A stretch of DNA of 46,365 bases from assembly GCF_000311725.1 (NCBI RefSeq), contig NZ_HE978516.1, positions 1 through 46,365 on the forward strand, in the 5' to 3' direction. The DNA is from Robertmurraya massiliosenegalensis JC6. Lineage in GTDB: Bacteria; Bacillota; Bacilli; Bacillales; Cytobacillaceae. Both the position numbers and the translations under genes were made by a program. Below, piece after piece: positions 21,528-38,851 of the stretch. The notes beneath the pieces are model-generated. The model had not been told where the DNA came from. It saw only the letters and a list, made by a program, of their open reading frames with translations, and searched no databases. How positions within the stretch are numbered: position 1 is the stretch's first letter; every line of letters starts with the position of its first letter.

Positions 21528-21555
21528 CGTTAACACACCCCTTTCTTATTTTTCT

Positions 21556-22389: not shown

Positions 22390-22407
22390 AGGAATAACCT
22401 CCTTTAT

Positions 22408-22986: not shown

Positions 22987-23002
22987 TCACACCCTTCTTT
23001 TT

Positions 23003-25402
23003 CTATGCCTTCTGAACTTCGACTAAGTTAGTATGTTGAGGATTTCCCTTAGCTAATGCAGATGGACGTTGACTTGTTAACGTGTTAATATTTCCGCGTT
23101 GATCAATGCCCTTATTATCTGGTGACCACCAAGCTCCCTGTGGAATTGCCACTGTTCCTGGAATAATTCTGTTCGTGAGTTTAACAGGCATATGAACTTC
23201 TCCACGATCATTGAAGATTTTCACTTTGTCACCATCTTTAATCTTTCTTGCTTTTGCATCTCTTTCATTCATCCACATCACTTGTGGTCCCGCTTCCTCT
23301 AACCACTTATTATTATCAAAAGTTGAATGACAACGGCGTTTGTAATGCCAGCCAATTAGCTGTAGTGGATATTTTTCAATTAATGGATCCTGTGGTCCCT
23401 CCCACGAAGATACATATTTCGGAATGGCTGGAATCTCCTCCAACTCATCCATATCCCAAAGCGCTTTCGAGAAAATTTCAATTTTACCTGAAGGTGTTTC
23501 AAATTTATGATTTTCCGGATCTTTAATCTGATCTTCAAAAGCTATTACGGCGTTATTTTCCAAAGAAACCTGATAAACTCCAAGTTTTTTGAATTCGTCA
23601 AAAGTTGGGAAATTCGGATCTACCTTTCGAGATTCCTCAATTGACCATTTCACCCAATCTAGTTCAGTTCTTCCTTCTGTAAATTCATTTTCAACTCCAA
23701 GCTTTTTCGCTAACATTGTGAGCCATTCATAATCTGATTTCGTCTCAAACAAATTTTCGATACACTTTTGAGACAATATTGCTTGTTGTGAAGGTGCCCA
23801 AGTTGATCCGATATCCCATCTTTCCATAAATGAATTAGATGGCAATAAAATATCTGCAAATTTCGCACTTGGTGTCATAAAGAGCTCACTGACTACAATT
23901 AGTTCAAGCAAAGACTCATCCTGTAAGATTTCAGCCGTACGATTACAGTCGGAATGTTGATTTATTAACGTATTTCCAGCTAAATTAAACATTGCTTTTA
24001 TATTTGATGGAAGTGTTTCTTGTCCTTCTGGTAAACCTTTCACTCCATCCTTCGCTCCCATTTCTGTTCCACGAACAACAGCGTCTGTCCAAAGGAAACA
24101 CGGGATCGTTAAACCACCTAATGGATTATCACCTTTTGGTACGGCAGTTGTTTTTACTAGACTGACATAACCGGCACCGGAAGCCCATCCACCTCGAACT
24201 CCTACATTCCCAGTAATGGCAGCAAGTACTGTACCACCTCTCACAAATTGTTCACCGTAAGCTTGTCTTTGTGGACCCCAACCTTGTAATAATGCTGAAG
24301 GTTTATTAGTTGCGAATTCTCTAGCAAGCTTTCGAATCGTATCAGCAGGTACTTTACAAATCTTTGATGCCCATTCAGGAGTTTTCTTTATTCCATCCTT
24401 TTTACCCATAATGTAGCTAACAAGAGATTCCCCTTCAGGTACACCTTCTGGCATATGTTCCTCATCAAATCCAACACAATATTTATCAACAAAGTTTTTA
24501 TCATATAGGTTTTCAGAAATAATGACATATGTCATTGCGTCCATCATGGCATTATCAGTAGTTGGAGCAATCGGGATCCACTCATCTGCTAATGCTATAG
24601 CTGTATCAGATTGTCTTGGATCAATAACAACGATCTTTACACCTGCTTCTTTTGCTTTTCTTACATAAAAGTCTGTTACACCCCAACGTGTTTCAACGGG
24701 ATTATGTCCCCATAGAATAATAAGCTTTGAGTCAGATAGGGTATTAAGTGTGCTCCCTGTTTGCGTCGTTCCATAAGTGAATGGTGTTGCTTGTGAAGTT
24801 TGGGCAGAACTATAAGAGTTATGATAACCAAGGTATCCCCCAGTGAGACCTAAGATTTTTTGAATCATATTACCTGCTCCAATGATACTTCCTGAATGCC
24901 CACTTGCGTAATTACTGTAACGACTAGAAGGTCCATATTTTTTTGTTATTCTCGTTAGCTCTTTTTCAATGTAATCAATTGCTTCTTCCCAAGAGATTCT
25001 TTCAAATTTCCCTTCTCCACGCTTTCCTACTCGCTTCATTGGATATTTTAAGCGATCAGGATTATAAACGAATTGTCTGTAGCCTCTACCTCGAATGCAG
25101 GCACGAAGTTGTGGAAGTTCAAATGTATCTTCTTTCGTATCTGTCGTAAGACGTGTCACGACACCATCATTTATATGAGCTTTTATTAAGCATCTACCAC
25201 CACAGTTAACGGTCGAACATGTCGTTAATACTTGCTCATCGATATTTTTACTTGGTTCCTCTGCACTAACTTTAGAAAGCATTTTCGATCCTTGCACCGT
25301 ACCCCCGATTACGACTGGAGCCGTAACTGCACTTGACCACTTAATAAAGCTTCGACGAGACATTTTATTTTCTTTTATGCTGTCAAATATATCTTTACTC
25401 AT
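23003..25402 (-). CDS. dmsA: DmsA-type molybdopterin oxidoreductase catalytic subunit 1
   Basis: A 799-residue enzyme with a Tat signal (SRRSFIKW at 15-22). An N-terminal [4Fe-4S] cluster has Cys62, Cys67, Cys71 and Cys102. The molybdenum bis-MGD domain follows, with the likely Mo-ligand Ser in NSYSSAQ (about 195-201), the same place as in E. coli DmsA (TYSTAQ). The C-terminal cofactor-binding domain (about 680-799) includes GDKVKIFNDRGEV. The Ser ligand points to the DMSO/TMAO/S- or N-oxide branch, though the substrate is unknown. GGAGG lies 9 bp before the ATG. It follows torD1 and is followed by dmsB1. Confidence 0.93.
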   Translation of the reverse strand: MSKDIFDSIKENKMSRRSFIKWSSAVTAPVVIGGTVQGSKMLSKVSAEEPSKNIDEQVLTTCSTVNCGGRCLIKAHINDGVVTRLTTDTKEDTFELPQLRACIRGRGYRQFVYNPDRLKYPMKRVGKRGEGKFERISWEEAIDYIEKELTRITKKYGPSSRYSNYASGHSGSIIGAGNMIQKILGLTGGYLGYHNSYSSAQTSQATPFTYGTTQTGSTLNTLSDSKLIILWGHNPVETRWGVTDFYVRKAKEAGVKIVVIDPRQSDTAIALADEWIPIAPTTDNAMMDAMTYVIISENLYDKNFVDKYCVGFDEEHMPEGVPEGESLVSYIMGKKDGIKKTPEWASKICKVPADTIRKLAREFATNKPSALLQGWGPQRQAYGEQFVRGGTVLAAITGNVGVRGGWASGAGYVSLVKTTAVPKGDNPLGGLTIPCFLWTDAVVRGTEMGAKDGVKGLPEGQETLPSNIKAMFNLAGNTLINQHSDCNRTAEILQDESLLELIVVSELFMTPSAKFADILLPSNSFMERWDIGSTWAPSQQAILSQKCIENLFETKSDYEWLTMLAKKLGVENEFTEGRTELDWVKWSIEESRKVDPNFPTFDEFKKLGVYQVSLENNAVIAFEDQIKDPENHKFETPSGKIEIFSKALWDMDELEEIPAIPKYVSSWEGPQDPLIEKYPLQLIGWHYKRRCHSTFDNNKWLEEAGPQVMWMNERDAKARKIKDGDKVKIFNDRGEVHMPVKLTNRIIPGTVAIPQGAWWSPDNKGIDQRGNINTLTSQRPSALAKGNPQHTNLVEVQKA

Positions 25403-25456
25403 ACTCTAAAACCTCCTAATTTCCCATAAATTTACTATTGCAACCTTGTAATTAGG

Positions 25457-26143
25457 TTAAAAATACAATTCATCGATAACATCTATGTCAAAATCAATAA
25501 ATTCTTCCATCATTTGCGCAGAAGAAGAAAATAACGACGATTTTGCATGGCTTTGTATATCCTTAGAAAACTGTGGTATCCATTTAGCTAAATGATCGTT
25601 TAGCATTTTCTTCTGTCCATCTAGCAAGTGATTATAGATAGTTATATTACTTTCTTGTTCTGCTCTTTCAATTAATTGAAGCATGAACAAGAGCTCATAT
25701 CCTATATGATCTTCTGCTTCATTATGTTGGTTTGTTTTTTTCTCTAAGGACAAATCGTATGTCTTAAATAGTTCCTTCACTTCAAAAGTTGGGAAATCAA
25801 AAAGACATTTATCCTTACCTCTATATACTGATTCCCACGGTGGTGCCAATAAAGAATCCGGTCCAATAAATAAGCGGAAATAGTCCTCTCTTGCACTTTC
25901 AATTGCTACTTCAATATCACGACTATTAAAGTAATGATGGAATTGCTCGCCACCACCTATTCCCATTAATCCTTCAATATTAAATCCTTCTTTAATATGC
26001 AGATACAACTCTTTATTCATTGGCTGAGTAAACAGTATATATTGGAGTTGATAAAATTCTTTTCTAGCTTTTAATAGTGGCGCATTCTTATCTTTAATCA
26101 TGTCTGCCGTAAAAGTCATTTTCCTCACCATCTCCAATCTCAT
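25457..26143 (-). CDS. TorD/DmsD-type chaperone 1
   Basis: About 228 residues, all helical. TorD-family marks are LAPPWESVYRGKD at about 111-123 and NEAEDHIGYELLFMLQ around 147-162. These chaperones bind the Tat signal of a molybdoenzyme and help insert its cofactor before export. As the first gene of operon 1, just upstream of dmsA1, it probably serves that enzyme. The start is uncertain: the ATG at 26143 gives this length, but a later ATG (nine residues in, position 26119) has GTGAGG nearby. Confidence 0.88.
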   Translation of the reverse strand: MRLEMVRKMTFTADMIKDKNAPLLKARKEFYQLQYILFTQPMNKELYLHIKEGFNIEGLMGIGGGEQFHHYFNSRDIEVAIESAREDYFRLFIGPDSLLAPPWESVYRGKDKCLFDFPTFEVKELFKTYDLSLEKKTNQHNEAEDHIGYELLFMLQLIERAEQESNITIYNHLLDGQKKMLNDHLAKWIPQFSKDIQSHAKSSLFSSSAQMMEEFIDFDIDVIDELYF

Positions 26144-26236: not shown

Positions 26237-26368
26237 TGTGAATGTCATCACAATATTTATCACATCTTCATTATAAAATTGAAAACAAAGAAATAATACG
26301 TATCGCGTATACAAAAATAGGGGATGAATTTTGTTTAGGCTAACCAAACAATTTTTACGAACTTGTGA
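26237..26368 (-). promoter_or_regulatory. Operon 1 promoter and shared regulatory module
   Basis: Read leftward, elements in order: a distal block CCAAACAATTTTTACGAAC..TGTGA (plus-strand 26344-26368; -81 to -105); a palindrome ATACG-TATCG-CGTAT (26296-26310, centred at -40); -10 TATAAT (26270-26275) with no matching -35; and an FNR-type box TGTGA-ATGTCA-TCACA (26237-26252, +12 to +27). The same parts and spacing occur before operons 2 and 3. The lack of a -35 and the palindrome at -40 suggest an activator-dependent promoter. The box sequence matches the Bacillus Fnr consensus. Confidence 0.75.
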
Positions 26369-26410
26369 AGTCAAAATTTGGAGAAGAAAGAGGGTGGATT
26401 GAAATGTGAT

Positions 26411-26456
26411 TTTTTTATGAAGAAGAAAGAAGGAATATTACACTATCCCTTCTTTC
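26411..26456 (-). terminator. Terminator of respiratory operon 2
   Basis: 9-bp arms GAAAGAAGG / CCTTCTTTC (26425-26433, 26448-26456), directly after the dmsC2 stop. The minus-strand tail is TTCTTC and then A-rich, so it is weaker than the terminator after dmsC3. Confidence 0.55.
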
Positions 26457-26462
26457 ATACCA

Positions 26463-27296
26463 TTAAGCTCCTAATACATAAAACACGTAGCGGCTCATGC
26501 CTTCAGCGAACAGAAGGACAGCCAGTGCCACATAAGCAAGTGAGAACGATACTTTTTGCTGCTTTGCCACGGAAAGATATCCTAGGAATGCTACACCTAC
26601 TACTTCAATTATCCAACGAATTGCTACCGTTGTTTGGTAATCTGCTAGCGAGGCTAACGCATTCGTTCCTTCAATCATATTAACCTCTGGCATCACGGAA
26701 CCAAATAAGGCGACACCCACTAATTGAAGGGCAATCCCTCCTAACGAAATATAGAAAGCCGTTTTGATTAAACTTTGTGCCTTTTCCTTTAATACTGGTG
26801 CTAGTAAGCTGACAACGAGAACCGGTCCTAGAACGAGAGCCGTTCCATAAAACGATGTAAATGTATTGACGGAATTCCAACCGCTGACTAAAGAATTCGA
26901 ATAAATCATTGCCATACAATAAATATCGACTAAACCGATGAGCGCTGATACAATCAATAACCATTGATTAACTTTCTTCTGCACAAGTGCCAGACCAGCT
27001 GTGACACAGGCAGCTCCTATAAATAATCCTGTCACCAAAATCTCACGACTCATCCAAGAAGAACCGAGGTTGCGAATCGAATTTAAAGCATGTGACGGTG
27101 TTCCTAAGTGAGCGAAGGAAGCGATTAATCCAATCAACGATAATGCTGCAATGACGATTAATGGGATTCGCATCGCTTTAAATCCTGTTTCTTCGCCTAA
27201 TTTATTTATTCCTTTATAGAAAATCGCTAGTGTCAATATTCCACCGATGGCGATTTGCACACAAACTGTAAAGATTAACAATGCCCATTCATGCAT
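26463..27296 (-). CDS. dmsC: DmsC-type membrane anchor of molybdoenzyme 2
   Basis: A 277-residue eight-helix DmsC protein, near identical to copies 1 and 3. It differs from copy 1 only at residues 38 (Ala to Gly) and 179 (Ile to Thr), and from copy 3 at three places. Copies 2 and 3 also share the region with the ribosome binding site just before the ATG (AGGAGTGATCAAAG). It takes electrons from menaquinol for DmsB2. It is the last gene of operon 2, 19 bp after dmsB2, and is followed by a hairpin. Confidence 0.9.
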   Translation of the reverse strand: MHEWALLIFTVCVQIAIGGILTLAIFYKGINKLGEETGFKAMRIPLIVIAALSLIGLIASFAHLGTPSHALNSIRNLGSSWMSREILVTGLFIGAACVTAGLALVQKKVNQWLLIVSALIGLVDIYCMAMIYSNSLVSGWNSVNTFTSFYGTALVLGPVLVVSLLAPVLKEKAQSLIKTAFYISLGGIALQLVGVALFGSVMPEVNMIEGTNALASLADYQTTVAIRWIIEVVGVAFLGYLSVAKQQKVSFSLAYVALAVLLFAEGMSRYVFYVLGA

Positions 27297-27315
27297 CTTT
27301 GATCACTCCTTTAAT

Positions 27316-27894
27316 TTAAATTGCCGCATCTTTATGTGCATTAATCACAAGATTTGGCTTTGTTATATTCGATGAAGGAATTCCCTTAATATCTGCATTT
27401 TTTCCATATTTTTTGCGGAGCTCGTCAATTGGACCAAAATCAATTGCGCGCATAATACAAGCGGCAACGCAAGCTGGCTTTTCTCCTGCTTCACGAAGAT
27501 CCAAACATGTATCACATTTTGTCATATGTCCTAATTCTTCATTAAACTGTGGTGCGCCATATGGACAGTTCCATTCACAATAACGACAACCAATACATTT
27601 TTCACTATCAACTAGAACAACGCCGTCTTCTTCACGTTTATGCATCGCCGTCGTTGGACAACCTTGTACGCAACCTGGCTCATCACAATGATTACAAGAT
27701 AAAGAGATATTAAATGCAGCAACATTATTGATCCATGCTCCATCCATGTCCTTTGTAAACTCTCCAGATTCCTCTACATAGACGCGACGAAAATTGATTC
27801 CGACTGCATTATCATTTTTGTCTTTACAAGCGATCGCACAGGCGTTACATCCGTTACATCTTGCTTGATTAATATAAAATCCCATTTGTACCAT
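27316..27894 (-). CDS. dmsB: DmsB-type four-cluster ferredoxin subunit of molybdoenzyme 2
   Basis: A 192-residue protein with four Cys groups: CNGCNACAIACK, CNHCDEPGCVQGCP, CIGCRYCEWNCPYGAP and CDTCLDLREAGEKPACVAAC. This gives the same four [4Fe-4S] relay as DmsB1. Its sequence is clearly diverged from DmsB1 although the neighbouring anchors are near identical. GGGGAGGG lies before the ATG. It sits 14 bp after dmsA2 and 19 bp before dmsC2. Confidence 0.93.
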   Translation of the reverse strand: MVQMGFYINQARCNGCNACAIACKDKNDNAVGINFRRVYVEESGEFTKDMDGAWINNVAAFNISLSCNHCDEPGCVQGCPTTAMHKREEDGVVLVDSEKCIGCRYCEWNCPYGAPQFNEELGHMTKCDTCLDLREAGEKPACVAACIMRAIDFGPIDELRKKYGKNADIKGIPSSNITKPNLVINAHKDAAI

Positions 27895-27908
27895 TTTCTA
27901 TCCCTCCC

Positions 27909-30305
27909 CTAAGCTTTTTTAACTTCTGCTAGATTAGTATGTTGAGGATTACAATGGAACGGTGAAGCTTCTAATCCAGTTAACACATTAATGGCTCCAC
28001 GTTTATCAATCCCATTTTGATCCGGATTAAACCATCCACCTTGAGGAACACAAACGACACCAGGCATAACTCTGCTTGAAACCTTGGCTGGCAATTCAAT
28101 CGTGCCACGCTCATTAAACGCCTGAACTTTATCTCCATCTTTAATCTTTCTTTCTTTTGCATCAATTGGATTAATCCATAGCTCTTGGGTTTGAACCTCT
28201 TCCATCCAATCGCTTGTATCCCATGTTGAATGACAACGTCTTTTCACATGCCAACCGAAAATTTGCAACGGATATTTGGATGTTAATTCACTTTCAGGAC
28301 CTTCATTAACAGCAACATGCTTTGGTATCGCTGGAATATCCTCAGGTCGATTCATATCCCAGAGAGCCTTTGAAAATAGTTCAATTTTCCCTGATGGAGT
28401 ACTAAAAGGAACATTCGCCGGATCTTCAATTTGTTCTTTGAATTTCACCACAGTAATTTCCTTGAATTTATGAACGCCGTTCTTCTGCATTTCTTGAAAG
28501 GATGGGAAGGTTGGATCATTCTTTTTCGATTCCTCTATCATCCATTTAACCCAATCATCTTGAGTTTTTCCTTCGGTAAATTCCTTTTCAATGCCAAGTT
28601 CTTTCGCAAGCTTTGCCATCCATTCATATTCAGTTAATGAACCATATAGTGGTTCTACTACCTTTTGAGATAAGAACATATGCTGACCATAGCTCCATGG
28701 ACCGACAACATCATTTTGCTCAAAGAATGTACAAGTTGGTAAAATAATATCAGAGTACTTTGCAGATGGCGTCATATAGATATCTGATGTCACGATGAAT
28801 TCACATAAAGTTTCATCCTTTAAAATCTCTGTTGTTTTATTAATATCTGAATGCTGATTGACTAAACAATTTCCTGCCATATTAAAAATCATTTTAATAT
28901 TCGAAGGTAATGTTTCTCCTTCTTCCAGACCAACTACTCCATCTTCTACTCCCATTTCAGTACCACGAACGATTGCATCTGTATATTTAAACACAGGGAT
29001 TGAAATGCCTAGTGGATTTTCCGGAATAGGGAAACCTTGAAATTTTGCTATACCAGGCGCATTTGGACCTGCCCAACCTCCGCTTATGCCAATGTTTCCA
29101 GTTAATGCTGCAATCATAGAACTCGCACGTGACATTTGCTCCCCGTTCATATGACGATTAATTCCATTTCCTTGAATCCATGCCATCGGCTTAGTTAACG
29201 CCACTTCACGTGCTAGTTGGATAATTCTGTTTGCTGGTAGGCCTGTAATTTTTGCAGCCCATTGTGGTGTTTTAGGCGTCTTGTCTTTTTCTCCTAGCAC
29301 ATAGCTATAATAGGATTCTCCAGCTGGTACTCCTTCAGGCATGTGATTTTCATCATGTCCTAGGCAATATTTATCAAGAAAGTCTTTATCATGTAGATTC
29401 TCTGTAAACATGACATAGGCCATTGCTGCAATTAGGGCATTATCTGTTCCCGGTTTGATCGGGAACCAATCATCGGCAAGTGCCACATTGGTATCTGTCT
29501 TTCTTGGATCCAATGTATAGATTTTTGCTCCTTTTTCTTTTGCCATTCTTAAATACATGTTCATATGACCAAATATTGTTTCTGCAGGGTTCATCCCGTG
29601 TAGAATAATCAATTTCGAATCTAATAAAGTATTACAACTACTTCCAGCCGCAGTTTCCCCAAATGTATACGGTGTCGCAGCCAAGTGCTGTCCAGAGCTA
29701 TAGTTGGAATAACGACCTAGAAAGCCTCCATCTAATGCAAGCACCCTTTGTATAACAGTATCTCCACTTCCAACCGTACCCGATTGACCTGTTGCATAGA
29801 GACTGAATCGTGAAGCTGGACCATACTTTTGCTTAATGCGATTATTTTCTTCAGCAATGATTTTAATCGCTTCATCCCAAGAAATTTCTTCAAATTTGCC
29901 TTCGCCACGTTTCCCAACGCGTTTTAATGGCTTTTGTATACGGTCTGGTGAATAGACGTGTCTTCTGTATCCTCTTCCTCGAACACAGGCACGAATTTGT
30001 GGATATTGTTCATTATCTGCATTTTCATCCCGAGGATCGTCGTCTGTGCTTATCCGCACAATTTGTCCATCCTTAATATGAGCCTTAATTAAACATTTCC
30101 CACCACAATTGAGCGTGCTGCATGTAGGAATAATGATTTCTTCCGCACTACCCTCAACTGTATCTGCACTGACCTTTTGAACAAGCTTATTTGATACGGT
30201 AACTCCACCTACTAAAGCTGGTACTGTGATAGCGCCAGACCATTTTAGAAAAGAACGACGCTTCATTTTTTTATTCGTTAAGCTATTCATTAAGTTCTCA
30301 TCCAT
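27909..30305 (-). CDS. dmsA: DmsA-type molybdopterin oxidoreductase catalytic subunit 2
   Basis: A 798-residue paralogue of DmsA1 with the same domain order. The Tat motif is KRRSFLKW near residue 16. The cluster Cys are in CSTLNCGGKC and RACVRGRG. The Mo-ligand Ser is in SNYSSGQ (about residue 200), and the C-terminal domain has GDKVQAFNERGTI. The ATG at 30305 is preferred to the TTG at 30311 because AAGGAGGG lies 8 bp upstream of it. It overlaps the end of torD2 by 8 bp (ATGGATGA), so the two are coupled. Substrate unknown; most likely another S-, N- or metalloid oxide. Confidence 0.93.
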   Translation of the reverse strand: MDENLMNSLTNKKMKRRSFLKWSGAITVPALVGGVTVSNKLVQKVSADTVEGSAEEIIIPTCSTLNCGGKCLIKAHIKDGQIVRISTDDDPRDENADNEQYPQIRACVRGRGYRRHVYSPDRIQKPLKRVGKRGEGKFEEISWDEAIKIIAEENNRIKQKYGPASRFSLYATGQSGTVGSGDTVIQRVLALDGGFLGRYSNYSSGQHLAATPYTFGETAAGSSCNTLLDSKLIILHGMNPAETIFGHMNMYLRMAKEKGAKIYTLDPRKTDTNVALADDWFPIKPGTDNALIAAMAYVMFTENLHDKDFLDKYCLGHDENHMPEGVPAGESYYSYVLGEKDKTPKTPQWAAKITGLPANRIIQLAREVALTKPMAWIQGNGINRHMNGEQMSRASSMIAALTGNIGISGGWAGPNAPGIAKFQGFPIPENPLGISIPVFKYTDAIVRGTEMGVEDGVVGLEEGETLPSNIKMIFNMAGNCLVNQHSDINKTTEILKDETLCEFIVTSDIYMTPSAKYSDIILPTCTFFEQNDVVGPWSYGQHMFLSQKVVEPLYGSLTEYEWMAKLAKELGIEKEFTEGKTQDDWVKWMIEESKKNDPTFPSFQEMQKNGVHKFKEITVVKFKEQIEDPANVPFSTPSGKIELFSKALWDMNRPEDIPAIPKHVAVNEGPESELTSKYPLQIFGWHVKRRCHSTWDTSDWMEEVQTQELWINPIDAKERKIKDGDKVQAFNERGTIELPAKVSSRVMPGVVCVPQGGWFNPDQNGIDKRGAINVLTGLEASPFHCNPQHTNLAEVKKA

Positions 30306-30987
30306 TTTCAATACCCTCCTTAAGTTCTTTTATATATTCATAGTCTTCAGAAATAAATGTTTGTAACAAGGTGGCAATCCCTTTGTAAAAATCACTTGTT
30401 CCAGATGACTGAATATCCTTAACAAATGCCGGAATCCATCGATGTAAGTGTTCTTTATGTAGCCACATCTGGCTATAAATACCACGTACATAGTCTTCCT
30501 TTTGTCCTGATTCGATTGCTGTAACCGTATGGTTTATTAAAAAGCGGATAAACTCTAATTCAATCGCAATATGATCTTCTGGTTGTGTATTTTCTTCAAT
30601 TGAATGGAGATCAAAGCTGGCTAACATTTTTCTTAGTTGAAATACCGGCTCTCCGAACATAGACCGATCTTTCGTTACATAAACGGATTCCCATGGTGGT
30701 GCTGGAATTTTTCCTTGCTCATTTAAAATATAGAATGTAGCTAGATAGGCCTCCTTTTCTTTCCGTTCGATCTCTTTCATATTTCCGATTCGTAGAGTTT
30801 GAAAAAAATTTTTTAGATCCTCATTATTTGCCGAAATGAGATCCATGAACTCTGTTGTAAAATGTTCTCTCCAGTTACACAGCGTTTCCAAACTCAACGG
30901 TTCTTGTAATGAAAGGTTTAAAAAAGAGTAAATGGCTTCTCTTTCTTTACTAATGGAAAGAAATTCTTTATCAATTAATAGTTGCAT
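30298..30987 (-). CDS. TorD/DmsD-type chaperone 2
   Basis: 229 residues, helical, with TorD marks IPAPPWESVYVTKD (about 107-120) and QPEDHIAIELEFIRFL. It should bind the Tat signal of DmsA2. I place the start at the ATG at 30987 because GGGGGGA lies 6 bp upstream; a longer version from 31020 lacks a site. It overlaps dmsA2 by 8 bp. It is the first gene of operon 2 and follows the shared regulatory module. Confidence 0.88.
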   Translation of the reverse strand: MQLLIDKEFLSISKEREAIYSFLNLSLQEPLSLETLCNWREHFTTEFMDLISANNEDLKNFFQTLRIGNMKEIERKEKEAYLATFYILNEQGKIPAPPWESVYVTKDRSMFGEPVFQLRKMLASFDLHSIEENTQPEDHIAIELEFIRFLINHTVTAIESGQKEDYVRGIYSQMWLHKEHLHRWIPAFVKDIQSSGTSDFYKGIATLLQTFISEDYEYIKELKEGIENG

Positions 30988-31022
30988 AATTGTCCCCCCT
31001 ATCATAAAAATAAAATGCATGT

Positions 31023-31154
31023 TGTGAAATAGATCACATTATTTATTTCATCTTCATTATAGAATTGAGGGATTGCAATTCATACGTATTACGTATACAA
31101 AAATAAACGTTGAATTTTGTTTGCGGTGACCAATCATTTTTTACAAACCTGTGA
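31023..31154 (-). promoter_or_regulatory. Operon 2 promoter and shared regulatory module
   Basis: Read leftward: distal block CCAATCATTTTTTACAAAC..TGTGA (31130-31154; -81 to -105); palindrome ATACG-TATTA-CGTAT (31082-31096, centre -40); -10 TATAAT (31056-31061); FNR-type box TGTGA-AATAGA-TCACA (31023-31038, +12 to +27). The box is a perfect match to TGTGA-N6-TCACA. Spacing is identical to the modules before operons 1 and 3. Confidence 0.78.
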
Positions 31155-31186
31155 AGGTAATAACTGGAGAAGAATGAGGAATTTTT

Positions 31187-31230
31187 CAAAAAAAAGAAGA
31201 AAGGAATGGTACACACATCCCTTTCTTCTT
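31187..31230 (-). terminator. Terminator of respiratory operon 3
   Basis: Perfect 11-bp arms AAGAAGAAAGG / CCTTTCTTCTT (31194-31204, 31220-31230), followed on the minus strand by TTTTTT. It starts just after the dmsC3 stop. Confidence 0.9.
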
Positions 31231-31234
31231 ACAT

Positions 31235-32068
31235 TTAAGCTCCTAATACATAAAACACATAGCGACTCATGCCTTCAGCGAACAGAAGGACAGCCAGTGC
31301 CACATAAGCAAGAGAGAACGATACTTTTTGCTGCTTTGCTACGGAAAGATATCCTAGGAATGCTACACCTACTACTTCAATAATCCAACGAATTGCTACC
31401 GTTGTTTGGTAATCTGCTAGCGAGGCTAACGCATTCGTTCCTTCAATCATATTATCCTCTGGCATCACGGAACCAAATAAGGCGACACCCACTAATTGAA
31501 GGGCAATCCCTCCTAACGAAATATAGAAGGCCGTTTTGATTAAACTTTGAGCCTTTTCCTTTAGTACTGGGGCAAGTAAGCTGACAACGAGAACCGGTCC
31601 TAGAACGAGGGCCGTTCCATAAAACGATGTAAACGTATTGACGGAATTCCAACCGCTGACTAAAGAATTCGAATAAATCATTGCCATACAGTAAATATCG
31701 ACTAAACCGATGAGTACTGATACAATCAATAACCATTGATTAACTTTCTTTTGCACAAGTGCCAGACCAGCTGTGACACAGGCAGCTCCAATAAATAATC
31801 CTGTCACCAATATTTCTCGACTCATCCAAGAAGAACCGAGGTTGCGAATCGAATTTAAAGCATGTGACGGCGTTCCTAAGTGAGCGAATGAAGCGATTAA
31901 ACCAATCAACGACAATGCTGCAATGACGATTAATGGAATTCGCATCGCTTTAAATGCTGTTTCTTCGCCTAATTTATTTATTCCTTTATAGAAAATCGCT
32001 AGTGTCAAAATTCCACCGATGGCGATTTGCACACAAACTGTAAAGATTAACAATGCCCATTCATGCAT
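31235..32068 (-). CDS. dmsC: DmsC-type membrane anchor of molybdoenzyme 3
   Basis: The third near-identical 277-residue, eight-helix anchor. It differs from copy 1 at residues 118 (Ala to Val), 179 (Ile to Thr) and 205 (Val to Asp). The Asp at 205 is in a predicted loop near MPE-NMIEG. It follows dmsB3 after an unusually long 84-bp gap, and ends at a strong terminator. It is predicted to be the menaquinol-oxidising subunit for the third reductase. Confidence 0.9.
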   Translation of the reverse strand: MHEWALLIFTVCVQIAIGGILTLAIFYKGINKLGEETAFKAMRIPLIVIAALSLIGLIASFAHLGTPSHALNSIRNLGSSWMSREILVTGLFIGAACVTAGLALVQKKVNQWLLIVSVLIGLVDIYCMAMIYSNSLVSGWNSVNTFTSFYGTALVLGPVLVVSLLAPVLKEKAQSLIKTAFYISLGGIALQLVGVALFGSVMPEDNMIEGTNALASLADYQTTVAIRWIIEVVGVAFLGYLSVAKQQKVSFSLAYVALAVLLFAEGMSRYVFYVLGA

Positions 32069-32152
32069 CTTTGATCACTCCTCTTTCAAAGCTTCTTATA
32101 TTTTCAAATTCAGACAAATGCCTCATTTCTCATCACTAGCTCTGATCCCTGA

Positions 32153-32689
32153 TTAAGCATTAATGATAAGATTCGGCTTCGTAATCGAAGATGATGGAAT
32201 TCCCTTAATATCTGCATTGCTGCCATATTTTTTACGTAATTCGTCAATGGGTCCAAATTCAATGGCGCGCATAATGCAAGACGAAACACACACAGGATCT
32301 TCCCCTTTTTCTCGTAAATCAAGACATGTATCACATTTTGTCATTTTTCCAAGTTCTTCACTGAATTGCGGAGCTCCATATGGACAATTCCAGACACAGT
32401 ATTTACACCCTATGCATTTATCATGGTCAACTAACACCACTCCATCTTCAGATCGCTTATACATTGCTCCTGTTGGACACCCTTGTACACAGCCTGGTTC
32501 AGTACAATGATTACAGGAGATGGATACATGTGTGAAAGATGGTTTCGGAAATGTTCCTTCCTCAAAATCATACACTCTACGAAAATTCCGTCCTACTTCT
32601 AAATCATTTTTATCCTTACATGCTACCGTACACGTTTTGCATCCCACACATTCAGCAACATTTATATAAAAACCTAATTGAGTCATCAT
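32153..32689 (-). CDS. dmsB: DmsB-type four-cluster ferredoxin subunit of molybdoenzyme 3
   Basis: A 178-residue protein with the four Cys groups intact: CVGCKTCTVACK, CNHCTEPGCVQGCP, CIGCKYCVWNCPYGAP and CDTCLDLREKGEDPVCVSSC. It is shorter than DmsB1 and DmsB2: the paralogues continue after INAH or IGAH, but here the reading frame stops after LIINA. All cluster ligands are present, so it should be functional. AAGGAGGG lies before the ATG. The 84-bp gap after it has no gene. Confidence 0.9.
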   Translation of the reverse strand: MMTQLGFYINVAECVGCKTCTVACKDKNDLEVGRNFRRVYDFEEGTFPKPSFTHVSISCNHCTEPGCVQGCPTGAMYKRSEDGVVLVDHDKCIGCKYCVWNCPYGAPQFSEELGKMTKCDTCLDLREKGEDPVCVSSCIMRAIEFGPIDELRKKYGSNADIKGIPSSSITKPNLIINA

Positions 32690-32705
32690 TCATTCCCTCC
32701 TTCTT

Positions 32706-35282
32706 CTAAAACTTGATAATTCGCTGCTCCCACTTTACATCCTCTTCTAAAGGCTCGCCATTCCATTTTTCTACATTACAATGTGCTGAGTTAAATCCTG
32801 AAGAGCCAAGTCCTTTTGGGATGTGCGCAACAAATAAGTTGTCTGCTCCCGCACGATCAATACCCGTTTTCTCATCAATATCGACCCACGCACCATGAGG
32901 TAAACCAATTGTTCCAGGAATAATACCTTCTGTAATTTTTGCTGGACGCAGAGATTTTCCATATTCATTTGACATTAATACCGTATCCCCATCCTTTATG
33001 CCCATTTCCTTCGCATCTTTTTGACTAATATATACAGGATTTGGCCATGCCTCACGCAACTGTGGAACATTATCAAATGTACTGTGTGAGCGTCTTAAAT
33101 AATGTGGATTAATCACTTGATAAGGATATTTTCCTTTTTTCTTCGTTTTCCAATCTTCAAAAGTGGTTTCATAGCCATGAACTTTTTCCTCATATTTAGG
33201 AATTGGAGCAATTTCAGAGTATGCTTTTTTTGATAACTCATTAATCGCTTTACAATAAATTTCAAATTTCCCACTTTCACTTGATACAGGATGGCCCTCG
33301 GGATCATCAATAAAATCCTTATAGGCAATAAAGCCAAAATTATCACCTGATTTTCTCGGGATCTGATAAATTCCTTGATCAACAAATTCTTTTAGAGGAA
33401 TTCTTCCTTGTTGCGGAGTACCTTCAACTCCCCACTCTTTTATATCATTCGCAGTAATCGTACATAATGGTTCATAATCAACCCCATTTTCTTTTACGAC
33501 CATGCTCCCAGCAAGTTGATTGAAATATTGTTGTTTCTCAGATAATGGGAATACTTTCTTAGGGTCTTTTCCAAGTGCTTTCAATAAACCTTCAGCAATT
33601 TCTTGATCTGTTTTCGATTCATATAGCGGCTCAATAATTTTTGACCAAGTAATGAGAATTTCACGATTACCGCCTTTTACTGCACCTTCTGTTTCCCATT
33701 GCGTTGCGACTGGTAATACAATATCTGCATATTTCGCATTTGTTGTAAGTGCATAGGCATTCGTTACTACAAACTCAACCTTACGATGAGCTTCAATTCC
33801 TTTGGCAATATTACTTCTTGTTTGTAATGTGTTGTTATAATTGTGATAAATGAATTGAATATTGGCCTTTCTTTCTCCCTCATAACGTTGAAGGAATTTA
33901 CCATCTAATACAGCATCCCAAATTTCATTTTCATTGATCATATTATCAACGGCATTAGGTACCCGTTCAGTTCCAGCTCCTCCAGAGGTTAAAAGCATTG
34001 GTCCCATATTTCCTGCGTATTCCCAACAGCTGACACCTGTCATATTCCCAGAACTCCCCATGTGTCCCGTCATCATACCGAGAGTTGAAAATGCTTGAAC
34101 CCAACCCTCGCCATTGCTAATTCGAGCAGGTGCCCATGCTGTTAGTAATGACACGCGCTCAGTACCCCCAATGTCTCTTGCCAATTCACGGATTTTACTC
34201 GGTTCTACACCACAGATTTCCGATGCCCATTCAGGCGTTTTAGGTTGGCCATCATATGTTCCGAGAAGATAATCTTTAAAATTATCCTTTGGATCGGCAC
34301 CTTCTGGCATATGCTCCTTATCAAATCCTATCGTGTATTTATTTAAGAAATCCCATTTCACAAGCGGATTCGTTACTGGATGATCTTCGTCTAGCAATGT
34401 ATACATCATCCCAAATGCCAATGCATCATCTGTTCCCGGCCTAATCGGGACCCAATCTGCATCAAAAACATTTGCGGAATCCGTATACATTGGATCGATG
34501 GAAATAAAACGCGCTCCTGCTTTCTTTGCTTGAAGATAATTGTATGTCACACTTCCCATTGTGCTCCAAGCTGGATTCGCTCCCCAAAGAACAATTAATT
34601 GTGAATTGCGCAGATCAAGACGATCGTTTATTCCGTTGACAGCTAACCCTTCGCCAACACCCATATTTTCGTAGATCCATCTCCATGCCCCCCATGAAGA
34701 ACTACCATAGCATGCAGAATATCCACCCACTTCAGACATGACATTCGTAATATTGATGTCTCCTCCTGTTACAAGGATCGACTCATTCCCATACTTCTCT
34801 GTAATTCGTTTCGTTTCTGCTGCAATTAACTCTAAAGCTTCATCCCAAGAAATCCGGACCCATTGATCATTTCCCCGAAGTTCCTTCTTGCCGCCACCTG
34901 GCTCCCAATTCTTTCTTTTCATTGGGTATTTTAAACGATCAGCATTAAATACTTGTTTTCGCTGAGAGCGCCCTCTTAAACATCCTCGTTGCTGTGGATA
35001 ATCCGGACTATCTGGATGGGTATCATCCGTTTTTTGCCGAACAACAACTCCATCCTTAATTAGCACCTTGTTCAAGCAACGACTCCCACAGTTATGCCAG
35101 CAAGCTGCGGTTTTCCAAATTCCCTCACCATCGCTGTCCTCTATACCAATGCTTGCATCTGCTTTCGCTATTAGACCCCGGCTTACCGGAATAGTAGCAG
35201 TAGCGGCAATGGCAGAAGACCAACCAATGAAAGATCTTCTAGACATTTTAAATTCATTTGCTTTTTTTAATAGGTCAAACAT
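32706..35282 (-). CDS. dmsA: Tat-exported molybdopterin oxidoreductase catalytic subunit 3
   Basis: An 858-residue enzyme from a different branch than DmsA1 and DmsA2. The Tat motif is SRRSFIGW (about 14-21). The cluster Cys are in ACWHNCGSRC and RGCLRGR. The Mo-ligand Ser is in CYGSSSWGAW (about residue 195-205), where DmsA1 and DmsA2 have SYSSAQ or NYSSGQ. Insertions around 125-140 (WEPGGGKKELRGNDQW) make it longer. The C-terminal domain includes GDTVLMSNEYGKS. It is likely to use a different oxidised substrate from the other two. It lies between torD3 and dmsB3 (16-bp gap). Confidence 0.92.
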   Translation of the reverse strand: MFDLLKKANEFKMSRRSFIGWSSAIAATATIPVSRGLIAKADASIGIEDSDGEGIWKTAACWHNCGSRCLNKVLIKDGVVVRQKTDDTHPDSPDYPQQRGCLRGRSQRKQVFNADRLKYPMKRKNWEPGGGKKELRGNDQWVRISWDEALELIAAETKRITEKYGNESILVTGGDINITNVMSEVGGYSACYGSSSWGAWRWIYENMGVGEGLAVNGINDRLDLRNSQLIVLWGANPAWSTMGSVTYNYLQAKKAGARFISIDPMYTDSANVFDADWVPIRPGTDDALAFGMMYTLLDEDHPVTNPLVKWDFLNKYTIGFDKEHMPEGADPKDNFKDYLLGTYDGQPKTPEWASEICGVEPSKIRELARDIGGTERVSLLTAWAPARISNGEGWVQAFSTLGMMTGHMGSSGNMTGVSCWEYAGNMGPMLLTSGGAGTERVPNAVDNMINENEIWDAVLDGKFLQRYEGERKANIQFIYHNYNNTLQTRSNIAKGIEAHRKVEFVVTNAYALTTNAKYADIVLPVATQWETEGAVKGGNREILITWSKIIEPLYESKTDQEIAEGLLKALGKDPKKVFPLSEKQQYFNQLAGSMVVKENGVDYEPLCTITANDIKEWGVEGTPQQGRIPLKEFVDQGIYQIPRKSGDNFGFIAYKDFIDDPEGHPVSSESGKFEIYCKAINELSKKAYSEIAPIPKYEEKVHGYETTFEDWKTKKKGKYPYQVINPHYLRRSHSTFDNVPQLREAWPNPVYISQKDAKEMGIKDGDTVLMSNEYGKSLRPAKITEGIIPGTIGLPHGAWVDIDEKTGIDRAGADNLFVAHIPKGLGSSGFNSAHCNVEKWNGEPLEEDVKWEQRIIKF

Positions 35283-35339
35283 CGTGATCTCAATCTCCTT
35301 CCGTGCTTTTCTTTTTTGTGAAATTCATCACATAAATAG

Positions 35340-36056
35340 TTATGTTTGAACTTCATTTGGTGTAATTTCTATATTCAATAGTTCTTTAAGAACTGCTGAA
35401 TCCACGGTTAAATAGTGCATCAAAATTTTAGCTAATCCTCGATAAAATGGAGTCTCTGCATTTGCAATCATCTTTTCACAAAATGCTGATGCGAATTTCA
35501 TTAAATGCTCATGCAAAAATTCTTCTTGAGCTTGTAACAAGTATGTCACTTCATGCAATTGCTCTTCTTTTGTCGATTCGATCGTTAATTTGTTTAAATG
35601 GTAAATAAAATCGAGTTCTAATCCAATATGGTCCTCTGCTTCTACATGTTGCTTTGTCATTTCAAACCCAAATTTTTCATACATTTTCCGAACACTGATC
35701 GTACAATTTTGAAAAAGCATAGGTTCTTTTTGAACATAGATCGATTCCCAAGGTGGTACTGGTAACTCAAATGGTCCAATCAACATTCTTGTATAATCCC
35801 AGTGCAAATCATCAAAATCTTGTTGATTAAAAAGCACATCATATTCTTGAAAATATGCCTTTAACTCTTTAACACCTTCTAAAATCCCTTCAGAATCTCC
35901 AGCAAAAGGAAATTGTTCAACCATTTTATGTTGAATAAAGATCTTCAAATATTCTTGTCTAGGTTCTTCAATAAAAAATCTTCTTAACACGTCATATGCA
36001 TACTCTCTTCCATAGAGAATATTTGTTAAACTAGACAAATCAATCTTTGTATTCAC
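35340..36056 (-). CDS. TorD/DmsD-type chaperone 3
   Basis: About 238 residues, helical, with the family marks LPVPPWESIYVQKE and VEAEDHIGLELDFIYHL. It should handle DmsA3. A GTG at 36056 is the likely start because AAAGGAGG lies 8 bp upstream; a longer version from 36086 would overlap the radical SAM gene by 29 bp. With this start, only one base separates it from the stop of that gene. It is diverged from the other two chaperones, in line with a dedicated chaperone for each enzyme. Confidence 0.87.
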   Translation of the reverse strand: MNTKIDLSSLTNILYGREYAYDVLRRFFIEEPRQEYLKIFIQHKMVEQFPFAGDSEGILEGVKELKAYFQEYDVLFNQQDFDDLHWDYTRMLIGPFELPVPPWESIYVQKEPMLFQNCTISVRKMYEKFGFEMTKQHVEAEDHIGLELDFIYHLNKLTIESTKEEQLHEVTYLLQAQEEFLHEHLMKFASAFCEKMIANAETPFYRGLAKILMHYLTVDSAVLKELLNIEITPNEVQT

Positions 36057-36057
36057 T

Positions 36058-37404
36058 TCATTCTCCTCCTTTAACATCCTTCTCAAAAATATCCTCTAAT
36101 TCAAAGAAGGAAGATGTTGTCCAGTCCAAACCAATTTCTCGAAGATAGCGTTCTCCTTCACTCTCTTCTGCAACTAGCGACGAAATAGATATCTCCAAAT
36201 CTCTATTTTTTAAATGATGGATATCTAAGACGGAAAACTGGATAAAATCATGATCGGTGTTTTCAATATAGAAAATATTTTCTCGATCAAACAATGCTTT
36301 CGCTTTCCTTATTTCTTTTCCAAATACTTTTGCCGTTTTTATAAAATAATCCTTATCGGAAAAAGTATAAGTTTTATCAGGGGTATGCTGATAATTTTGC
36401 TGGTATACTTGACCGGTATGCTTATTCTCAAGAGAGCAATAATGAACCCCGAGCTTTAATTTTTCATTCAAAGCAAATTCCAAAAGCTCCAAACACTCTT
36501 TTTCACTGTCGGCAACGGCAAGTCCACCTGCGTACCAATAGTTGTAATACATTTCATACGGTGGATATTTTAGCTGAAGTCCTCTTTCCTTAAAGGCATC
36601 AGCGTTCCCTAATGGAAAGCAAAGTTCTAATAGATTTATCCCAAAGATATCTAATTTCTCAAGCTTTAAAAGCAGATCTTTCATATCCTCTAATGTTCCA
36701 GGGATGACTGGCATTTCTACAAGAATATTGGGAATAAACTCTCTTGAAAGGGCAATTTTCTCCAATAAGAAATTAATTCTAGCTACTGAGTCATCCATTT
36801 TGACACTAAAACGGATTTCGTTTAGATTGGCATTTTTTAATTGTTTAAGTAATTCTTGATCAAGTAGGTCTCCTGTTGTATAAAGTCTTGTATAGGTTTC
36901 TGGCGACTCCTTGTGAGCCGTTTCAAAGAATTCGACAACCTCGTCCTTAAACAACAATGGCTCACCACCAGTAAGCGCCAAATGTTTCAGTTCAATCCCT
37001 TGTGCTAATAAATCGAGAAGTTCTTTTTTAATGTCTTTTTGCTTATTTTTATAAAATAGATAGTCATCTTGATTTGGGTTAAAACAGAAGAAACAATTTC
37101 TATGACATTTTAATGAGGGGTACGTTGTATAACTATTACTTCCTGTTTGACAGGCTTCACATGCACTAGAAATCCGATTAACGACCACACTTTTATTATT
37201 ATTTCTAACGGATGCACCAGCACGTTCTAAACTTTTCAATCTTTCATTTTTTTCATAGAATGCAGATTCTTGTTGAAACGGAAGTCCAAAGGTTTCGATC
37301 TGATGGATTGTTTCACTTTCAATATTCGTATAAATTTGAGCATAATGAATAAAAGCTTTGTTTTTAATTGAATACACATTGTCCATTGTTATTTTCCGGA
37401 GCAT
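36058..37404 (-). CDS. Radical SAM protein, first gene of operon 3
   Basis: About 448 residues. The radical SAM cluster motif is LKCHRNCFFCF (CX3CX2C, about 108-118), preceded by a Cys pair in SACEACQTGSNSYTTYPS. The SAM-binding GGE is in LALTGGEPLLF. The barrel runs to about 300, and a C-terminal region of 150 residues has no extra cluster Cys group. The likely start is the ATG at 37404, with AAAGGA 9 bp upstream. Its stop is one base before torD3, so it is in the same operon. Function unknown; it may mature the reductase or its cofactor, or act on a related substrate. Nothing like it precedes operons 1 and 2. Confidence 0.8.
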   Translation of the reverse strand: MLRKITMDNVYSIKNKAFIHYAQIYTNIESETIHQIETFGLPFQQESAFYEKNERLKSLERAGASVRNNNKSVVVNRISSACEACQTGSNSYTTYPSLKCHRNCFFCFNPNQDDYLFYKNKQKDIKKELLDLLAQGIELKHLALTGGEPLLFKDEVVEFFETAHKESPETYTRLYTTGDLLDQELLKQLKNANLNEIRFSVKMDDSVARINFLLEKIALSREFIPNILVEMPVIPGTLEDMKDLLLKLEKLDIFGINLLELCFPLGNADAFKERGLQLKYPPYEMYYNYWYAGGLAVADSEKECLELLEFALNEKLKLGVHYCSLENKHTGQVYQQNYQHTPDKTYTFSDKDYFIKTAKVFGKEIRKAKALFDRENIFYIENTDHDFIQFSVLDIHHLKNRDLEISISSLVAEESEGERYLREIGLDWTTSSFFELEDIFEKDVKGGE

Positions 37405-37428
37405 ACTCTCACATCCTTTTATCAATCA

Positions 37429-37469
37429 TGTGAAACAGATCACATATTTTATTGCACTTTCATTATAAA
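37429..37469 (+). promoter_or_regulatory. Candidate FNR-activated promoter of the divergent regulator
   Basis: On the plus strand the FNR-type box (37429-37444) is followed, after 19 bp, by TATAAA (37464-37469). This puts the box centre about 40 bp upstream of the predicted start, as in FNR-activated Bacillus promoters. It would drive the PucR-type regulator and perhaps dmsA4. The two opposite -10 boxes share the same few bases. Confidence 0.5.
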
Positions 37470-37560
37470 ATTGAGACAACAGAATTGATACGTACCTCGT
37501 ATACAAAAAAAGTGAATGAAATTTGTCTATTGCGCCCAATCATTTTTTACGATCTTGTGA
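37429..37560 (-). promoter_or_regulatory. Operon 3 promoter and shared regulatory module
   Basis: Read leftward: distal block CCAATCATTTTTTACGATC..TGTGA (37536-37560; -81 to -105); palindrome ATACG-TACCT-CGTAT (37488-37502, centre -40); -10 TATAAT (37462-37467); FNR-type box TGTGA-AACAGA-TCACA (37429-37444, +12 to +27), only about 25 bp before the radical SAM start codon. The short distance rules out an FNR-activated promoter downstream of the box. Confidence 0.78.
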
Positions 37561-37651
37561 CTTTGATTGTTGAATGACAGTGAGTGATTTAAGATGAAGA
37601 TGAATCTATTAAAGATGAAGAAAGGAATGAAACAACTTGGAGGAGAGGTTT

Positions 37652-38851
37652 TTGGTTCCACCATTGATTCACGACTTGCTTATGGCCTCTCACGACGGGC
37701 TTAGCGGGTTAGCGAATAAACTATCCGAAGTTTTATCTTATCCAATGATTATTACGGATTCTTTCTATCATGTATTAGCTTCTTCATTTAATAAAGAATC
37801 GTTAGAAATCCTGGTTTCAACTTCTTTTGAAAACTATTCCCATACAGTTTTTTTTACATGCACGCTAAATATAGAGGGAATCGATTACCAAGCCTACGGA
37901 TATCCAATTAAATTAGGGAATCATAATGTGGGAAATCTTTTTTTATTGCTAGAAAATGAGGAGCAATTAGAAATCGAAAATTATGAATCGATTATCCAAT
38001 ATGGGTCATCTCTATGTTCTTCTCGCATCAAGCAAATGGTTGATTTAAAGAAAGAAAGCCAACGCTATAAAGATGCATTTCTATTTGATCTCCTCTATGG
38101 AAACTTTAAAAATAGAGAAGATATTTTAGCTTATGGTTCACTCTGGAAATGGGATTTTAATCAACCACATGCTGTTATCGTTCTTTCGATGATTGAATAT
38201 AATCCTTATTCAGAAGATAAGCAGCTCATAGATACATTGCTGTATTTAACAGAAAAAGCACTCGTTCAACATGGGTACGAACCTATTGCGATTCGCAAAC
38301 AAAGTGAGGTTGTCCTAATTCTTCCCGTTAATAAACAGACAAACTTCACTCAACCTTTTAAGCCTTGTGAGCTTATTTCATATATCATCAAACAAACAAA
38401 AGAAAGTCCTATCGGAAACAGAGTAGCATGTGGTGTCGGACAAGTGTACGAAAATCCAGGGGAACTATTTCGAAGCTATCAGGAAGCAAAAGTCTCCTAC
38501 GAAATTGGTTTGTTATTAAAAATCGAAATTCCTTATTTTCATAATATGGGACTTGAAAGAATTTTATATAAGCATGATCTCCAGGATCTAAAAGAATACT
38601 ACAATCATATTTTAGGTCCACTACAAAAATACGATGAAACGCAGGAAGGTGATTTAATGTTCACCCTCGAAAGCTTTGCTCATCATCAATTTGATTTAAA
38701 ACAAACATCAGATGCAATCTTTTTACATCGGAACACCTTGAGATATCGCATCAAAAAAATCGAAGAAATATTAAATATAAAATTAGATGATGTCAATAAC
38801 CGCTTAAATATTGTCGCTGCTCTAAAAATTAAGCAGCTCCATAAAATTTAA
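37652..38851 (+). CDS. PucR/CdaR-type transcriptional regulator
   Basis: About 399 residues. The N-terminal half has a GAF-like or sensory region (LSEVLSYPMIITDSFYHVLASSF and following), and a GGDEF-like CdaR middle region lies about 160-300. The C-terminus (about 335-395) has the PucR helix-turn-helix pattern FLHRNTLRYRIKKIEEIL. The start is taken as the TTG at 37652 with GGAGG 8 bp upstream; a TTG at 37637 is also possible. It diverges from operon 3 across the regulatory module and lies directly upstream of the fourth oxidoreductase. It is a good candidate to bind the ATACG-N5-CGTAT palindrome, by location only. Confidence 0.85.
   Translation: MVPPLIHDLLMASHDGLSGLANKLSEVLSYPMIITDSFYHVLASSFNKESLEILVSTSFENYSHTVFFTCTLNIEGIDYQAYGYPIKLGNHNVGNLFLLLENEEQLEIENYESIIQYGSSLCSSRIKQMVDLKKESQRYKDAFLFDLLYGNFKNREDILAYGSLWKWDFNQPHAVIVLSMIEYNPYSEDKQLIDTLLYLTEKALVQHGYEPIAIRKQSEVVLILPVNKQTNFTQPFKPCELISYIIKQTKESPIGNRVACGVGQVYENPGELFRSYQEAKVSYEIGLLLKIEIPYFHNMGLERILYKHDLQDLKEYYNHILGPLQKYDETQEGDLMFTLESFAHHQFDLKQTSDAIFLHRNTLRYRIKKIEEILNIKLDDVNNRLNIVAALKIKQLHKI

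Follow-up and report, generated by a model that had tools for sequence, protein, structure and literature searches.

Three promoter modules of one design were characterized in a stretch of 46,365 nucleotides (nt) from Robertmurraya massiliosenegalensis JC6 (contig NZ_HE978516.1, positions 1 to 46,365), here called the window. The minus strand of the window carries three dimethyl sulfoxide (DMSO)-reductase-type operons in succession. The gene pucR, which encodes a PucR/CdaR-type regulator, is divergent from operon 3. The modules are probably promoters that depend on a PucR/CdaR-type activator, most likely the protein encoded at 37637-38851, and that carry a Rex- or Fnr-type brake. They have the same elements at conserved spacing, they match the regulator at the genome level, and the strong modules examined lie before DMSO-reductase-type genes.

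Architecture of the promoter module

The initial annotation described three modules with the same parts in the same order and at the same distances, and this was confirmed. The modules align without gaps over 132 base pairs (bp), from TCACA at about -105 to a TGTGA-N6-TCACA box ending at +27. Each module has 93 nt from TCACA to TATAAT and an identical offset of the downstream box. The flanks are mostly dissimilar, with a pairwise identity of 0.1-0.55 per 20-nt interval and up to 0.7 in a few. The bases between the parts had been described as much less conserved. This was incorrect, as the best-conserved element, ACAAAWTTCA-N5-TWTTTTTGT, sits between the upstream block and a palindrome, ATACG-N5-CGTAT, centred at -40.

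Likeness of this kind could reflect recent duplication or gene conversion of the upstream regions, without regulatory meaning. The three DmsC genes (21556-22389, 26463-27296 and 31235-32068, minus strand) are near-identical (834 nt; 18, 32 and 28 mismatches), which shows that sequence is exchanged between the operons. However, this near-identity ends close to the gene borders and the DNA on both sides is mostly unrelated, as are most of the module flanks. The same module geometry is also retained in further genera and families, where the genes that follow are arranged differently, which already contradicts a reading by duplication only. That explanation is very improbable. The DmsC near-identity itself looks like gene conversion restricted to one gene.

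Modules from relatives were compared in a 22-row alignment (A1). Six module-less loci, one locus with an uncertain -10 (L016) and four loci that were the same or nearly the same as others (L010, L011, L012 and L035) were omitted. The consensus order was GTCACA-N4-CGTAAAA, GYACAAAAAT-N8-ATTTTYGT, GNCCATAY or similar, and TATAAT. At the core of the module is a conserved dyad of 24 bp, ACAAAAA-N10-TTTTYGT, whose centre falls at -59.5 if the -10 element occupies -12 to -7. Among 43 modules, the distance from the dyad start to the -10 was 59 nt in 41 and 58 nt in the remaining two. At least 11 of 14 dyad positions were matched in all 43 modules, which were collected with a model containing the dyad; 7% of shuffled controls reached 11, a control that applies to modules pre-selected by the model. 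A GNCCATA-like element lies directly after the dyad, near -38. The upstream box, TCACA-N4-CGTAA, was present at 8 or more of 10 positions in 37 of the 43 modules. In 28 of these it preceded the dyad by 33-34 nt, and in the other nine by 40-41, 63-64 or 69 nt. Two upstream boxes were visible in some modules. Downstream of the -10, by about 17 nt or about 10 nt, starts a box with the majority sequence WTGTGAA-N4-TTCACAA. It was clear in 31 of 35 modules (at least 11 of 14 positions of the Rex consensus TTGTGAA-N4-TTCACAA).

A -10 TATAAT with no -35 had been proposed and this held in the larger set. The best TTGACA match at spacers of 16-18 averaged 2.46 of 6 positions across 35 modules, compared to 2.56 in shuffled sequence. 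No Rfam matches at the gathering threshold were found in window positions 20000-46365, and an RNA leader or riboswitch was rejected as an explanation.

The palindrome had been taken as the likely site of an uncharacterised activator. It could be the main operator of another class II activator, such as a Crp/Fnr-like protein or a response regulator. It has a class II position and is perfect in all three copies despite a diverged centre. The genome search suggested for it was run on the 4.96-Mb genome of the strain and returned five places, compared to one for a control pattern. Three were the modules and the other two were within open reading frames (ORFs). Among the homologous modules, however, the palindrome was present in four of 43, and the long form in two of 193 family genomes. 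Elsewhere GNCCATAY or similar stands by the dyad with the rest of the module kept, and the dyad at -59.5 is kept throughout. The palindrome was rejected as the operator after this comparison and a separate class II activator is unlikely. The right half of the palindrome in the window's genus falls at the GNCCATA position and the left half is new. Judged from these alignments, the palindrome is a local variant of the module.

Distribution of the module and of PucR-type regulators

A model of the module from the upstream box to the -10 (R1) was built from sequence only. On the genome of the strain it returned three strong sites with expectation values (E) of 6e-18 to 9e-17; the next independent site was at 0.02. 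The family sample comprised 193 genomes including that of the strain. Genomes with a strong match (R1 E<=2e-9; next genome 2e-5) and genomes with a PucR ortholog (E<=1e-50) formed identical sets of 29. An order-wide sample comprised 397 genomes. A PucR homolog at E<=1e-100 was present in five genomes outside the family. In each of these five the pucR contig carried module matches (E 8e-14 to 1e-6), with two such matches in three of the genomes. These results agree with the initial annotation, in which the PucR protein was the first candidate for an activator of a shared module. Two further genomes, G335 and G223, had no close ortholog and had matches below 1e-5, both beside another PucR-like gene. 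Twelve HTH_30 hits were found in the genome of the strain, and a full module within the fetched flanks was present only at the window pucR (66.9 bits, next 14.6). Across 20 HTH_30 hits in two genomes the full module was found only at the two pucR orthologs, with L246 and L250 weak (14.6 and 9.6 bits).

Homologs of the operon 1 MopB protein (E<=1e-200) were present in 67 genomes. PucR orthologs were absent from 49 of these, none of which had a strong module. The weak R1 matches in 11 of the 49 were distant from the MopB gene or lay on separate contigs.

Homologs of the radical S-adenosylmethionine (SAM) protein of operon 3 (E<=1e-60) were present in 28 of the 193 family genomes. A module upstream plus a divergent homolog of the window PucR was found at 22 of the 28. 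This placement between divergent genes would also suit a reading in which the sequence beyond -70 serves as the pucR promoter and has no part in operon control. However, modules 1 and 2 and the modules on G081 C26 and G098 C1 carry the upstream box without adjoining a pucR ortholog, and this reading is improbable. Neither module nor PucR homolog was found upstream of the other six radical SAM loci (L021, L022, L023, L024, L039 and L040). PucR at E<=1e-50 was missing from three of these six genomes (G156, G058 and G106). In G032, G098 and G124 it was encoded elsewhere, with a module between pucR and a MopB operon that begins with TorD in two of the three. The module thus travels with the regulator and a reductase and not with the radical SAM gene. 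The module-less loci L021-L024 have another common motif, roughly TTTTCGTAAY-N16-TGTGAA (L023 with variants), perhaps the site of another regulator. A TorD homolog was near the radical SAM gene, within the flanks fetched, in 25 of the 28 loci.

Matches not adjacent to pucR were found before DMSO-reductase-type operons in several genomes. They include G010 (E 4e-10, 3.6 kb away) and G124 (2e-7, 8 kb). In G081 (6e-13) and G098 (8e-9) the match was on a different contig from pucR. A distant match was present in G038 (2e-5, 0.45 Mb) and weak ones in G030 (4e-4, 1.3 Mb) and G039 (1.5e-3, 0.44 Mb). The pucR-adjacent module of G038 and G039 precedes a ferredoxin-type gene resembling the last gene of operon 1. 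Nine of the 29 matching genomes supplied no row to R1 (G010, G028, G032, G038, G039, G098, G116, G124 and G149), although G010 nearly duplicates an R1 row. Their matches, and those found away from pucR, are the part of the co-occurrence that does not follow from how R1 was constructed.

A number of observations weigh against control by PucR as proposed. The 22 rows of R1 stem from 20 of the 29 matching genomes and 20 of the rows are from pucR-adjacent sites. As the rows are mostly pucR-adjacent and all come from matching genomes, much of the co-occurrence is linkage. Scans with R1 over many genomes used stricter filters and weak matches were lost. Four genomes outside the family with a weaker PucR (E 1e-67 to 1e-52; G196, G459, G479 and G555) lacked a match next to it. 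Within the genome of the strain, no comparable site was found in the fetched flanks of the remaining HTH_30 genes, most of which were without such a dyad nearby. The regulon is selective: only 10 of the 28 operon 1 MopB homologs in 18 PucR genomes had an upstream match (E<=0.01), comprising 7 of 8 at 64% identity or above and 3 of 20 below. The upstream box was under 8 of 10 in six of the 43 modules and the redox box was unclear in four of 35. One close MopB homolog without a match (G030 C1:4302102) adjoins a different PucR-like gene. The commoner, more distant DmsA-type operons of PucR genomes are without modules and so must be controlled otherwise.

Weak R1 matches from the order-wide search (E 1e-6 to 1e-3) pointed to a wider pattern. 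Another HTH_30 gene was within the fetched flank in 19 of 23 such loci, whereas the same was true of 3 of the 41 control loci. The corresponding Fisher value (1e-9) overstates the independence of the loci, which include close relatives (L196/L205 and L199/L206). HTH_30 neighbours were checked at these 23 of the 46 matches listed, and the remainder were 11 strong and 12 weak matches. Nearly all 23 loci were from other families (L185 is in a genome with a pucR ortholog and L197 in the window's family). The control loci, all from the genome of the strain, were mixed: 15 TGTGA sites, 2 palindrome sites, 14 weak R1 sites and 10 Crp-family loci. Two of the three positive control loci were weak R1 sites. 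Regulator and match were co-oriented in 16 of the 19 loci, and in the other three the opposite strand of the dyad yields a same-direction site at a spacing of 59. At 16 of the 23 loci a spacing of 59 nt separated the dyad start from the best -10, with a -10 scoring that slightly favours spacings near 59. The genes downstream at 10 scanned loci were five MalK-type ATP-binding cassette (ABC) ATPases, three M20 peptidases, one acyl-CoA dehydrogenase and one gene without a family.

The recurrence of HTH_30 neighbours and of the 59-nt spacing suggests that a group of PucR/CdaR regulators shares this dyad, and its spacing from the -10, as a common grammar. The dyad is no signature of the whole HTH_30 family, as most paralogs in the genome of the strain show none nearby. 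Generality over all HTH_30 regulators was not supported in the window's genus (20 hits, two genomes). We narrowly favour a reading in which a dyad TGCACAAAAA-N10-TTTTTGTGCA, followed by a GTCCATA-like element and a -10 lying 59 nt from the dyad start, would be a promoter grammar common to a broad PucR/CdaR (HTH_30) group in Bacillales. The spacing would be the same at unrelated targets, namely DMSO-reductase operons, MalK-type ABC ATPases, M20 peptidases and an acyl-CoA dehydrogenase. The dyad-adjacent element would have evolved into a second perfect palindrome in the window's genus, as a private variant.

Operons and neighbouring genes of the window

The features of the window are listed in Table 1. 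The initial annotation placed the module before all three operons. The three molybdoenzyme operons of the window do have it, but at least one further PucR-like/TorD/MopB locus of the strain, diverged and located on contig C2 at about 92500-104500 (L254), has its own TGTGA box and no module.

Table 1. Operons, regulator gene and promoter module elements in the window
Feature	Position	Strand	Basis
Operon 1: TorD, DmsA/YnfE-type MopB, 4Fe-4S, DmsC, ferredoxin-type	20622..26143	-	Pfam/NCBIfam matches
Operon 2: TorD, DmsA/YnfE-type MopB, 4Fe-4S, DmsC	26463..31020	-	Pfam/NCBIfam matches
Operon 3: radical SAM (first gene), TorD, DmsA-like MopB, 4Fe-4S, DmsC	31235..37404	-	Pfam/NCBIfam matches
pucR, PucR/CdaR-type regulator (GGDEF_2 + HTH_30), proposed activator	37637..38851	+	PF13556, PF17853; ortholog and strong-module sets identical, 29/193 genomes
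Module 1 upstream box TCACA-N4-CGTAA (about -105 to -92)	26355..26368	-	alignment
Module 1 core dyad ACAAAA..TTTTTGT, 24 bp, centre -59.5	26311..26334	-	13/14 positions, 59 nt before -10
Module 1 palindrome ATACG-N5-CGTAT, centre -40; right half at conserved GNCCATA-like position	26296..26310	-	alignment, genome search
Module 1 -10 TATAAT, no -35	26270..26275	-	sequence
Module 1 TGTGA-N6-TCACA box (+12 to +27), Rex/Fnr-like	26237..26252	-	sequence
Module 2 upstream box TCACA-N4-TGTAA, 9/10	31141..31154	-	alignment
Module 2 core dyad	31097..31120	-	module comparison
Module 2 palindrome	31082..31096	-	alignment, genome search
Module 2 -10 TATAAT	31056..31061	-	sequence
Module 2 TGTGA-N6-TCACA box	31023..31038	-	sequence
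Module 3 upstream box	37547..37560	-	alignment
Module 3 core dyad	37503..37526	-	module comparison
Module 3 palindrome	37488..37502	-	alignment, genome search
Module 3 -10 TATAAT	37462..37467	-	sequence
Module 3 TGTGA-N6-TCACA box	37429..37444	-	sequence

The alpha subunits of operons 1 and 2 scored 1057 and 974 bits against TIGR02166 (DMSO/selenate reductase), both above the cut-off of 778 bits. The alpha subunit of operon 3 scored 513 bits, which is under the cut-off. The radical SAM protein that is first in operon 3 (36058-37404, minus strand) had no NCBIfam family above cut-off. A fourth TGTGA-N6-TCACA box (35317-35332, minus strand) is located between torD and mopB of operon 3, approximately 35 nt upstream of the mopB start. 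The window PucR protein has a C-terminal HTH_30 domain (PF13556, E 9.5e-19, above cut-off) and a GGDEF-like domain (PF17853, E 5.3e-16). Downstream of pucR a molybdoenzyme gene is split into two overlapping frames (38907-39977 and 39949-40911, plus strand). The same gene is a single ORF of 673-680 amino acids in four relatives (L011, L012, L222 and L223), suggesting a frameshift in the genome or in the assembly.

Proposed regulation and comparison with known systems

The downstream boxes of the window read TGTGAT-N4-TTCACA. They match the Fnr operator sequence TGTGA-N6-TCACA at 10 of 10 positions and the Rex consensus at 12, 12 and 11 of 14. Three Crp/Fnr-family proteins of the strain have a cysteine-rich C-terminal tail, as in Bacillus Fnr. 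The box could accordingly be read as an Fnr site, responding to oxygen or redox state through an Fe-S cluster, in place of a Rex site; this is possible but is the less probable identification. The box is not at an activating position, and its location downstream of the start suits a repressor. The majority sequence of the 35 modules is near the Rex operators of Gram-positive bacteria, the Staphylococcus aureus consensus being TTGTGAAW4TTCACAA (PMC2883068), although the GAT left half of the window copies is unlike it. The genome of the strain has 22 TGTGA-N6-TCACA places, and the neighbours of 15 did not discriminate between Rex and Fnr.

Binding, activation, the start site, the effector and the identity of the downstream-box regulator are predictions in the following model. 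Each module would be a sigma-A-type promoter with a -10 and no -35 that needs an activator. The PucR protein would bind the 24-bp dyad at -59.5, also contact the adjoining GNCCATA-like element beside the missing -35 and additionally use the movable upstream box near -98. On this array from -105 to -35 it would substitute for the -35 and recruit RNA polymerase upon a small-molecule signal. The binding to the array is proposed by analogy with GabR. A redox regulator would have the TGTGAW-N4-TTCACA box after the start as its operator, and Rex, a repressor that senses reduced nicotinamide adenine dinucleotide (NADH), is likelier than Fnr in this role. With a Rex-type block from this box, enzyme production would follow a build-up of reducing power. 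The modules have an inverted repeat upstream and lack a -35, as expected of a PucR-type activator-dependent promoter, which has an inverted-repeat operator and a weak or absent -35.

The PucR-type regulators studied to date are mostly activators, and about half of the known members have a GGDEF-like domain, as a 2020 account describes (PMC7652997). Few PucR/CdaR-type members had been studied by then; the account gives sites for AdeR, PutR, PucR and GabR and none for CdaR and Srm22 (PMC7652997). GabR of Corynebacterium glutamicum, a PucR-type activator of gabTDP encoded by a divergent gene, occupies the -87 to -23 region by means of two inverted repeats, and a CRP-type repressor site follows the transcription start (PMC7652997). 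These features resemble those of the window. In contrast to the window protein, GabR has no GGDEF-like domain, and it controls one catabolic operon with a predicted -35, whereas the window has several respiratory operons with a -10 only. AdeR and PutR of Bacillus subtilis are likewise HTH_30 activators with an inverted-repeat site, of 24 bp and 17 bp respectively (PMC7652997). Their targets are in amino-acid catabolism, unlike those of the window, and the sites were compared by length. CdaR/SdaR of Escherichia coli is of the same family but functions in sugar-diacid metabolism, and its site is given as not determined in 2020 (PMC7652997). The window protein is neither an AdeR nor a CdaR equivalog, scoring 88 of 700 bits and 59 of 612 bits at the respective NCBIfam cut-offs.

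In the open-licence literature no paper was found on the PucR family with DMSO reductase in Bacillus, nor on a regulator or promoter of a Bacillus DMSO/selenate reductase. No description of this regulon or dyad was found in the listed titles and abstract starts from that literature, which excludes most subscription papers. A fixed, searchable operator would allow regulon prediction for uncharacterised PucR/CdaR-type members. If the proposed control by PucR is true, a specific regulator would be named for some Bacillaceae DMSO-reductase-type operons, together with a separate redox brake.

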